Source: Hydrogenovibrio marinus (GTDB lineage: Bacteria > Pseudomonadota > Gammaproteobacteria > Thiomicrospirales > Thiomicrospiraceae). Taken from it: 64,000 nucleotides of DNA. Location of the stretch: the NCBI RefSeq assembly GCF_013340845.1, contig NZ_AP020335.1, positions 1,674,001-1,738,000 of the forward strand, in the 5' to 3' direction. The position numbers were made by a program, and so were the translations under genes. The notes below the pieces were generated by a model, which did no database searches, was not told the origin of the DNA, and worked only from the letters and a program-made list of their open reading frames with translations. Of this stretch, positions 27,514 through 30,018 are shown piece by piece; the first letter of the stretch is position 1, and each line of letters opens with the position of its first letter.

Positions 27514-28248
27514 CTACTCAGAGCAGATTAATGCATCTTCTCCAGCAAACTCTTTTAAATGCTCTTCATTCAAGATTGTGATTTCTTTCTTTTTCCAGTT
27601 CAGAACATTTAGTTTGTTGAACTTCGCCAGAATGCGAGACACGGTCTCCGGCGTCAGATTCAAATAGCTTGCCACATCTCTATGCAGAATATTTAAACGG
27701 AATTTCGTGTGAAGATAGCCTCGAGACTTATATTTCAGAGACATCGACCATATAAAATAAGCCAATCGCTGTTCAGCAGTTTTTTGCGTCAGCAATGAAG
27801 TGTACATGCGACTACCGACAATTTCCTGACTCATCAAACTAAATATCTGACTATATAGGTTAGGAACCTGCGTTGCCAAATCGGAAAGTTGACCATAAGG
27901 GATTTCACACACCGTGGTGACATCCAAGGCTACCGCGTAAAACTGATACTCCTGATAAGCAATTGAGTCCATCCCAACAATATCGCCAGGTAAATAGAAA
28001 CCGTGAATGACTTCCAAATTATTATGATCGTAGGAAAAGAGCTTCACCGCTCCCGCTCTGACTGCAAACAAAGAAGTAAACTTTTCACCTTCTTTGAATA
28101 GATATTCCCCCTTTGAAAGAGATGGCTTGCGATTCACTAACTCATCTAACTGAGATAAATCCGTATCATGAAGTCCGTTAGCAAAACAAATGCGCTGTAA
28201 CCCGCAATTTGCGCAATTAGCAGTATAATGAATGGCAATATTTCCCAT
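27514..28248 (-). CDS. fnr: FNR-type oxygen-responsive transcription regulator
   Basis: CRP/FNR-family activator with an oxygen-labile [4Fe-4S] cluster. It has 244 residues. Three N-terminal cluster cysteines are at 12, 15 and 21 (CANCGLQRIC), and the fourth lies in the beta-roll (VTTVCEIPYGQL, matching FNR C122). The dimer helix and the C-terminal helix-turn-helix follow, with recognition helix LTPETVSRIL holding the E..SR triad that reads TTGAT half-sites. All sensing residues are present, so true FNR/ANR activity is expected. It is divergent from the kinase-Rieske fusion gene across an AT-rich spacer. Confidence 0.93.
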   Translation of the reverse strand: MGNIAIHYTANCANCGLQRICFANGLHDTDLSQLDELVNRKPSLSKGEYLFKEGEKFTSLFAVRAGAVKLFSYDHNNLEVIHGFYLPGDIVGMDSIAYQEYQFYAVALDVTTVCEIPYGQLSDLATQVPNLYSQIFSLMSQEIVGSRMYTSLLTQKTAEQRLAYFIWSMSLKYKSRGYLHTKFRLNILHRDVASYLNLTPETVSRILAKFNKLNVLNWKKKEITILNEEHLKEFAGEDALICSE

Positions 28249-28815
28249 AAGCGAATTCTTAACCTAAATCAATTTTCTCCAAATACTCGCGCTATTTTAG
28301 CAAAATCAAAATTGTACAGATTACTTAGTTCACAAAAATATGAAAAACGCCTCACCAAAGTTTTCAAAAAACGATATGCACCATTATATGTTGATAGAAA
28401 AACTCTCTTTTTCGATTAAGAAATTTAATTGTAAAAAGTGTTGTTACAACAAATCATCTGAGACGACCTAGCAGGCTGATTAATTTTTAATCACTTTAAA
28501 AAAGATTAACGAATTTTAGGCACTTACCAATCAACGGGGTAATTTTAACCACAAAGTTATCCACAGGTTTTGTGGATGAAAAAACATAAGTACTTTCAAC
28601 ACACAAAACATTAAAAAAAATACAAAAGAAATTATATATCAATAGGTTATAGTATTTTTCTAGAATACAACGCCAATAAAAAAACTAATTTTCAAAAAAC
28701 ACTGTCAAGCATTTTCTTAAATTTATTCACCGCTTCGTTTTGGTGCGTATTCTCGTTCCAAGAAAATTGGGTTGTGTTAAAATTCGTGCCAAATTTGAAT
28801 TTTCTCGAGGTATTT
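28249..28815. other. AT-rich intergenic region between fnr and the kinase-Rieske gene
   Basis: 567 bases without a convincing gene. It is markedly A/T-rich. It contains a perfect DnaA-box sequence TTATCCACA (28557-28565), and ATCCACA/TGTGGAT form a 7-bp inverted pair around GGTTT (28559-28577). Also present is a palindrome GATTAA-TTT-TTAATC (28478-28492). No FNR box (TTGAT-N4-ATCAA) was found by eye. The promoters of both divergent genes must lie here; TGTGTTAAAAT (about 28773-28783) is a possible extended -10 for the kinase gene. Confidence 0.5.
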
Positions 28816-30018
28816 ATGGCAAAAATTTTAGGTATAGGAAATGCAATCCTAGACGTCATCCTAACCACAGCGCATTACCCAAGGGAAGATGAGGAACTTA
28901 GAGCCTCTGAGCGTCAGTTTCAGGTGGGCGGTAATGTCTGTAATTCTCTTTATGTTTTGAGCCAGCTTGGACACGACACAACTATCGCAACCACCATTGC
29001 CAGTGACGATGCTTCAAAACAGTTGTTAAATGGCTTAAAAGCTCGACAAATACAAACTGAACACACTCAGAGATTCATTCAAGGACAAACCCCCACTTCC
29101 TATGTCATTCTCAATCAAGAGAACGGCAGTAGAACCATCACCCACTTTCGTGATCTGCCGGAGCTAAGTTTTGATTTCTTTGCCAAAATCGAAATAGAAG
29201 AATATGACTGGTTACATTTTGAAGGGCGTAACCTGGAACATCTTCCAGGAATGATGAACATCGCCAAGACCTTTTTAACCCATCAGCCTATTTCACTGGA
29301 AGTTGAAAAGGCGCGAGACGGCATTGAGCAACTCTTCCCTCAAGCAAACCTGTTAATCTTTTCTCACCACTATGCTGGCCAAAAGGGATATAAGGATGCG
29401 ACAAGCCTACTGAAAGACATCAAAACTCAAGCGCCAAACAGTCACTTAGTATGTGCTTGGGGCAAGGACGGTGCATGGTTCTGTCCGGCAGGGGGCAATA
29501 TCTCGCACCAGTCAATCCATGAAATTCCACAAACGATTGATACCCTCGGTGCCGGAGACACCTTCAATGCTGCATTAATTGACGCATTGATTCAAAAACA
29601 AGATTTAGCAACTGCTGTGGATACCGCATCCAAACTTGCTGCAAGAAAATGCCAGCAATTCGGGTTCGATAACCTATTGACAGAAATCAAAGAAAAACAG
29701 CCGCTAGCAAATGTTAACCAAGTCAACAACTCGAAAGTACTGATTGTGCCTTGTGCAGATTTGCCTCACTCGGTTATTTTGATTAAGCATGAAGATCAGG
29801 TTAAGGCATACCAGAACAACTGCCCTCATCAAGATGTACCGCTAAACGAAGCTTATAAGGTAGACGTTAATCCATTTGAAAAAACGATGAAGTGCTCTGT
29901 ACACGATGCCTTCTTCTCAATTGAAGATGGTGTGTGCATTGAAGGTCCGTGTATCAATGACGAACTAGAGATCGTCGCTATTGAGATAGATGATAAAGGC
30001 GATATTTATCTCGCCTAA
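28816..30018 (+). CDS. PfkB-family sugar kinase fused to a Rieske [2Fe-2S] domain
   Basis: Starts at MAKILGIGNAILDV, with GAGGT six bases upstream; an in-frame ATG 14 codons earlier is less likely. It has 400 residues. Residues 1 to about 300 form a PfkB/ketohexokinase-like kinase: QVGGNVCNSLYVLSQLG near the N-terminus and the catalytic DTLGAGDTFNAALIDAL. Residues from about 310 form a complete Rieske-type domain with ligands Cys336-Pro-His338 and Cys360-x-x-His363, followed by FFSIEDGVCIEGPC. Both active sites look intact. The sugar substrate is unknown. A Rieske domain on a sugar kinase is unusual and might give redox control. Confidence 0.85.
   Translation: MAKILGIGNAILDVILTTAHYPREDEELRASERQFQVGGNVCNSLYVLSQLGHDTTIATTIASDDASKQLLNGLKARQIQTEHTQRFIQGQTPTSYVILNQENGSRTITHFRDLPELSFDFFAKIEIEEYDWLHFEGRNLEHLPGMMNIAKTFLTHQPISLEVEKARDGIEQLFPQANLLIFSHHYAGQKGYKDATSLLKDIKTQAPNSHLVCAWGKDGAWFCPAGGNISHQSIHEIPQTIDTLGAGDTFNAALIDALIQKQDLATAVDTASKLAARKCQQFGFDNLLTEIKEKQPLANVNQVNNSKVLIVPCADLPHSVILIKHEDQVKAYQNNCPHQDVPLNEAYKVDVNPFEKTMKCSVHDAFFSIEDGVCIEGPCINDELEIVAIEIDDKGDIYLA

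Follow-up and report, generated by a model that had tools for sequence, protein, structure and literature searches.

Architecture of the Locus

The analyzed stretch of DNA, referred to as the window, comprises 64,000 nucleotides of the Hydrogenovibrio marinus genome, which is represented by a single contig of 2.49 Mb. Within the window, a gene encoding a ketohexokinase-type PfkB kinase fused to a Rieske [2Fe-2S] domain is located on the forward strand at positions 28816 to 30018 and encodes 400 amino acids in a single frame starting with ATG. The motif GAGG (28807..28810, forward strand), lying 5 nt before the ATG at 28816, likely represents the ribosome binding site as deduced from the sequence. 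An alternative, longer GTG start is present at position 28774, and the related proteins align from the ATG at 28816 instead. Based on Pfam and the ketohexokinase fold, residues 1–288 (28816..29679, forward strand) constitute the kinase part, followed by the linker and the Rieske part at residues 289–400 (29680..30015, forward strand). The Pfam match for PfkB (PF00294) covers residues 1–286 with 110.8 bits against a cut-off of 25.8, and the match for Rieske (PF00355) covers residues 295–381 with 39.4 bits against 20.3. These assignments bear out an earlier sequence-only reading of this DNA, according to which one frame joins both domains.

A gene for an FNR-type regulator is located divergently at positions 27514 to 28248 on the reverse strand and, with a PRK11161 score of 223.2 bits, slightly below the cut-off of 228, is regarded as no more than a candidate member of the system. 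Its divergent arrangement recurs in 38 of the 46 family loci reaching 1.5 kb upstream, these loci being redundant. A single FNR-box-like site near the fusion gene deviates at three of ten positions, as counted without a chance control, and two such sites with two mismatches adjoin the FNR gene itself, more than 500 nt from the fusion gene. Control of the fusion gene by FNR was rejected, since no convincing box was detected in this search without a chance control. The sequence-only reading was right about the neighbor, which, however, adds little to the redox theme with which it was called compatible.

The Kinase Half

Membership of the first half in the PfkB/ribokinase family follows from a PF00294 score above the gathering threshold and from the GAGD motif at residues 245–248, which includes Asp248 (29557..29559, forward strand). 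This residue corresponds to Asp258 of human ketohexokinase (KHK), the catalytic base according to PMC11332825. The best solved relative is human KHK, with 162 bits over residues 3–287 of the fusion protein. The structure predicted for the full-length protein (mean pLDDT 94.4, pTM 0.77) matched KHK with Z 41.3 and an rmsd of 1.4 Å over 288 residues, followed by sulfofructose kinase (Z 35.3) and a putative ribokinase (34.0), the ribokinase entries shown reaching at most 34. Human and mouse KHK (PDB 2hqq, 6ul7, 3nbv and 6p2d) share the whole-kinase fold, the catalytic Asp and the fructose-contacting residues with the window kinase, for which a ketose is the putative substrate; in contrast, these KHK chains comprise about 300 residues without a Rieske part and are 32–34% identical to it. 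The next-best solved relative, the sulfofructose kinase YihV (PDB 7ag6), is likewise a ketose kinase of the PfkB fold, but scores below KHK, is 24–25% identical and also has no Rieske part.

In order to describe the pocket, 110 kinase rows were aligned, comprising 18 fused proteins (the window protein appears twice), 29 coupled kinases and 63 without a directly downstream Rieske gene. In PMC11332825, KHK residues D15, N42, N45, K174 and D258 are described as touching fructose, R141 as closing the pocket, and E173 as possibly coordinating the C6 hydroxyl. The equivalents of D15, N42, R141, E173, K174 and D258 are identical in all rows covering the respective column, and that of N45 is kept in 109 of 110 rows, with Thr in the remaining one. 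The D27 equivalent is Asn in nine of the 110 rows, and C282 is variable. Conservation of the fructose pocket is equal in fused, coupled and Rieske-less rows; judged from these residues, each of the three groups has the pocket of a ketose kinase.

By fold and fructose-contacting residues, the protein is of the ketohexokinase type, with ATP-dependent phosphorylation of fructose at C1 as a putative activity, and the ketohexokinase-like PfkB kinase with GAGD that had been proposed from the letters is confirmed by Pfam, the KHK fold match and the pocket. A nucleoside or cofactor as substrate, suggested in the same place, is disfavored because the residues contacting fructose in human KHK are retained. 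The protein scores far below the cut-offs for ribokinases (TIGR02152, 76.3 bits against 299.65) and for 1-phosphofructokinases of the FruK type (TIGR03828, 36.4 bits against 292; 24.5 bits in the genome scan), and no 1-phosphofructokinase that could use fructose-1-phosphate was found over the cut-off in the own genome.

The Rieske Half

Rieske clusters are known for carrying electrons in respiratory chains and in oxygenases. The second half of the fusion protein qualifies as a Rieske [2Fe-2S] domain by its PF00355 score, its four ligands and its predicted fold. Based on sequence and alignment, the ligand pairs are C336-P-H338 (29821..29829) and C360-S-V-H363 (29893..29904); past them, the alignment revealed the invariant motif C374-I-E-G-P-C379 (29935..29952, all on the forward strand) with two extra cysteines. 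The patterns C-P-H, C-x-x-H and C-x-x-G-P-C are invariant in all 27 aligned Rieske domains, whether fused, separate and adjacent, or standalone. The domain is therefore complete, as had been claimed from its ligand pairs, and probably binds a [2Fe-2S] cluster. The invariant Cys pair near the cluster could possibly act as a disulfide or thiol pair and thereby as a second redox switch.

Since the Foldseek list for the whole model was filled by kinases, the Rieske part was modeled and searched separately (pLDDT 93.0). Its best fold matches are Rieske ferredoxins, with a top Z of 14.4 and an rmsd of 2.3 over 100 residues for dioxygenase ferredoxins. Ferredoxins of ring dioxygenases and monooxygenases (3gce, BphA3, T4moC) have the Rieske fold and the C-x-H and C-x-x-H ligands in common with the window domain. 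However, identity to these ferredoxins is 14–24%, the invariant CxxGPC sets the window domain apart, 21 residues separate its ligand pairs as compared to 18 and 16 in two aligned ferredoxins, and no dioxygenase was recognized alongside. The domain also stays below the NCBIfam equivalog cut-offs for ring-dioxygenase ferredoxin subunits (HcaC, AndAb), with 20.6 bits for a cut-off of 113 and with 19.5 and 17.1 bits for cut-offs of 150. NirD, the small subunit of nitrite reductase, also contains a Rieske domain and provided a fold match (3c0d), but its NCBIfam match of 18 bits is far under the cut-off of 74.65 and the partner in the window is a kinase.

Outside the window, the own genome contains a sole other PF00355 match (G000:C1:1491904-1492098, locus L300), located in a 212-codon frame.

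Conservation of the Fusion within the Family

The fusion was detected in all 33 other sampled genomes of the same family, which we take to be the Thiomicrospiraceae; residue 1 to at least residue 398 of 400 was matched, with no internal stops. A frameshift or misassembly as the origin of the fusion is ruled out by this result, and neither of the objections raised in advance, a sequencing error or absence from relatives, holds. The closest named relative is Hydrogenovibrio sp. JE_KL2, whose fusion protein is 98% identical. Named carriers of the fusion include Hydrogenovibrio, Thiomicrospira, Thiomicrorhabdus and a Halothiobacillus MAG, and two named family members are labeled Piscirickettsiaceae in the kinase tree.

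CPH, CxVH and the catalytic Asp are kept in all 42 distinct aligned fused proteins (40 from the family and two from outside, other outside fusions having been missed by the gene call), and AAGD replaces GAGD in two of the 42. Three pairwise comparisons (L002, L003 and L004) gave much lower nonsynonymous than synonymous values for either half, and in each of the three the nonsynonymous value of the Rieske half was the lower of the two. For the 98% identical relative (L002), nonsynonymous and synonymous values amount to 0.015 and 0.383 for the kinase, and to 0 and 0.319 for the Rieske half.

In the Thiomicrorhabdus MAG NP51 (L062:6001-7198), a frame change breaks the kinase part of the fusion, being either an assembly error or real.

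Pairing of Kinase and Rieske Proteins in Other Families

A sample of 369 genomes from the class was screened for the kinase at an E-value of 1e-20 and for the corresponding Rieske protein at 1e-15, resulting in 102 and 142 positive genomes, respectively. Among the 102 kinase genomes, nine encode the fusion, 31 have an adjoining Rieske gene, 20 carry the Rieske gene elsewhere and 42 had no Rieske match. The figures for unpaired kinases are to be read as maxima, given the Rieske threshold of 1e-15 and loci ending less than 1 kb downstream (e.g., L103, L133, L164, L173 and L175). All kinase loci except one were inspected as sequence (101 of 102), the remaining genome (G367) being judged from match coordinates. 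The Rieske gene directly follows the kinase gene on the same strand in 30 genomes (29 plus G367; two cut by a contig end), and in one further genome (G276) the order is reversed, with the Rieske gene before the kinase gene and 23 nt between the matches. In total, a fused or adjoining Rieske partner is present in 40 of the 102 kinase genomes, spanning 25 families. Proteins combining PfkB and Rieske domains, the search for which had been recommended, are hence found as fusions in nine kinase genomes of the class sample, and elsewhere the two are usually separate proteins. In a phylum-wide sample searched at 1e-30, eight of 398 genomes matched, all labeled as the same class, and the fusion appeared only in the window's own genome.

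A possible Rieske start codon overlaps the kinase stop codon by 4 nt in 16 of the 29 adjacent pairs examined, as is common for translationally coupled genes. Furthermore, the Rieske protein occurs in 59 of 102 genomes with the kinase versus 83 of 267 without it (odds ratio 3.0). On the sequence level, the adjacent separate genes of other families support a functional link between both proteins.

Neither protein strictly needs the other, because 83 of the 142 Rieske genomes are kinase-less and 62 of the 102 kinases have no adjacent Rieske gene. No KHK-like neighbor was found at any of 85 Rieske loci, which had been picked because the kinase is not adjacent; together with the kinase-less genomes, this indicates that the Rieske protein also functions independently of the kinase and that the partnership, although frequent, is not obligatory.

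At one of these 85 loci (L250:865-2196, genome G465 of family f8), the Rieske gene begins 9 nt downstream of another PfkB kinase, which takes the place of the ketohexokinase-like one. This kinase comprises 332 amino acids (PF00294, 179 bits) with no NCBIfam equivalog over the cut-off; a single case of this kind may be due to chance. A 662-codon frame at locus L107 was considered as another fusion and rejected, as Pfam gives only PfkB, at its end.

Association with RuBisCO

RuBisCO, identified by PF00016 matches over the cut-off, is present in 176 of the 369 class-sample genomes; the own genome gave three matches. It was found in 94 of 102 kinase genomes versus 82 of 267 others (odds ratio 26.5, p 1.4e-28), in tests that ignore shared ancestry and with a profile that also catches RuBisCO-like proteins. 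By family, 52 of 55 kinase families are positive compared with 34 of 127 others, one positive genome in the sample being enough for a family to count as positive, and the total of 182 families being taken as the highest family code. The Rieske protein alone is weakly linked to RuBisCO (85 of 142 versus 91 of 227 genomes). RuBisCO is present in 35 of 40 paired and in 59 of 62 unpaired kinase genomes; given the latter, the link is the kinase's own, with or without the Rieske partner. This association is the strongest context clue for the kinase and had escaped the sequence-only reading.

Proposed Function of the Kinase–Rieske Module

The architecture is real, conserved and widespread, and both of its parts belong to known families. 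The best reading is a ketose kinase of CO2-fixing bacteria for which a Rieske ferredoxin would serve as a tuning element or as an electrically coupled partner. An internal ketose is suggested as substrate by pocket conservation, by the association with RuBisCO and by the absence of a recognized sugar operon. Regarding the latter point, no pathway or sugar operon was recognized beside the pair among the neighbor clusters, of which about ten representatives were named by Pfam/NCBIfam and the rest were judged by eye. As inferred from its sequence, the kinase would phosphorylate a free ketose, probably at C1, using ATP, and would work with a Rieske-type ferredoxin that is the product of a separate adjacent gene in many bacteria and part of the same chain in the Thiomicrospiraceae and a few other lineages. 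Its substrates may be ketoses such as fructose, xylulose, ribulose and sedoheptulose that leak from the Calvin cycle by dephosphorylation and would thus be recaptured.

Since the kinase reaction needs no electrons, the Rieske protein would act either as a sensor by which the kinase is tuned or as an electron carrier serving a further enzyme that is brought alongside. Tuning is favored because no recurrent redox partner was recognized and because the fused form would hold the cluster beside the kinase. The [2Fe-2S] cluster and the neighboring invariant Cys pair might report the redox state of an electron-transfer chain, and the cluster might tune the kinase in such a way that ATP is spent on ketose recapture in one redox state only. 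A kinase of RuBisCO-containing bacteria that recaptures ketoses and is redox-tuned by its Rieske partner is proposed tentatively, with a probability somewhat short of even. In its most specific form, a redox-switched ketose kinase for Calvin-cycle bacteria whose Rieske cluster sets the rephosphorylation of leaked ketoses by its reduction state, as a two-protein module fused in the Thiomicrospiraceae, the proposal is rather unlikely to hold in full. Redox control of the kinase is the most conjectural element, ahead of cluster occupancy and substrate; the redox idea of the sequence-only reading nevertheless is the leading one.

The plant cycle is under redox control by light through thioredoxin. 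The proposed switch, if true, would be a bacterial functional counterpart of this control. A conserved Rieske partnership with a small-molecule kinase would moreover represent a new use of Rieske clusters, and the RuBisCO tie of 52 out of 55 kinase families hints at a step around the Calvin cycle that has been overlooked in CO2-fixing bacteria and may be under redox control. Pairing and RuBisCO tie together point to a connection, so far unstudied, of sugar handling with redox state in autotrophs. No paper on the kinase–Rieske fusion or pair, or on its RuBisCO link, was recognized among the matches listed by a literature search, with subscription papers mostly and preprints outside its reach. 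Both halves are testable in one purified protein, since the single chain comprises 400 residues.

Alternative Explanations

The Rieske protein may instead carry electrons for an oxidoreductase or oxygenase distinct from the kinase, and the kinase would be tied to it for channeling, a ketose being phosphorylated and subsequently oxidized or reduced within one complex, without control of the kinase. This explanation, which we consider unlikely but the most serious competitor, fits the dioxygenase-ferredoxin fold of the Rieske part and its independent role in the 83 kinase-less genomes. A further hint is a gene for an FAD-dependent oxidoreductase (PF01266, 232.7 bits; representative L088:11495-12583), which follows the kinase on the same strand in eight loci without an adjacent Rieske gene and takes the position that the Rieske gene has in other lineages. 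However, no oxygenase or ferredoxin reductase was recognized among the recurrent neighbors of the pair, of which about ten representatives were named by Pfam/NCBIfam, and the own genome offers only the one other PF00355 match (1491904-1492098).

Alternatively, the kinase could be a fructokinase of sucrose or compatible-solute metabolism recycling the fructose released by sucrose synthase, with the Rieske link being secondary. The intact KHK pocket is compatible with this, and sucrose synthase (PF00862) occurs in 37 of 102 kinase genomes versus 19 of 267 others (odds ratio 7.4), an enrichment by which the link to autotrophy could be indirect. However, the odds ratio drops to 2.1 within RuBisCO genomes, 65 of the 102 kinase genomes have no PF00862 match, and among all sampled genomes without such a match the kinase still tracks RuBisCO (59 of 65 versus 64 of 248). 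At an E-value of 1e-20, PF00862 is absent from the own genome and from three other family genomes in the sample. Sucrose metabolism was rejected as the context, as it has no PF00862 match in the own genome and explains less than RuBisCO, and the fructokinase explanation is improbable.

The pairing might also be mere conserved gene order maintained under shared conditions, followed by a neutral fusion. The Rieske gene does keep several neighbor families with or without the kinase (SnoaL-like proteins, an MFS transporter, an S49 peptidase and a bile-acid-type transporter). Moreover, in an AU test with 61 rows, from which 47 of the 63 rows without adjacent Rieske gene and the long row L165 had been left out, a single fusion origin was not rejected (p 0.146). 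Against this explanation stand the occurrence of the pair in 25 families, its reversed order in G276 and the fused lineages, which do not group in the quick tree. In this tree of 109 kinases, coupled and uncoupled kinases are mixed, the fused label needs three changes, and fused rows appear in three places, namely the Thiomicrospiraceae, the Halothiobacillus-type and f158 group, and G087. Gene order without functional meaning is accordingly considered quite improbable.

Several independent fusions were rejected as a firm reading, the AU test not rejecting a single origin at the p-value given.

That the Rieske half is an addition serving structure or stability, for instance by anchoring the kinase dimer, and that its cluster is a relic, is very improbable, since a relic would lose its ligands, which are invariant, and since nonsynonymous differences in the Rieske half remain below those of the kinase half in all three comparisons, even though kinases without an adjacent Rieske gene have the same pocket.

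Further Recurrent Neighbors

Besides those mentioned above, three further neighboring genes recurred in the analyzed loci. At 27 kinase loci without an adjacent Rieske gene, a protein of about 100 amino acids is encoded directly upstream of the kinase on the same strand (representative L129:4991-5287); two CxxC motifs and hydrophobic stretches, but no Pfam match, were found in the representative. In seven Rieske-only loci, a HAD hydrolase gene shares the strand of the Rieske gene and in most cases immediately precedes it (representative L209:6334-7005), the representative being a phosphoglycolate phosphatase over the cut-off (309 versus 225 bits). Furthermore, nine loci, of which five contain the kinase, have a gene for a bile-acid/pantoate-type transporter after the Rieske gene (representative L227:4987-5895).
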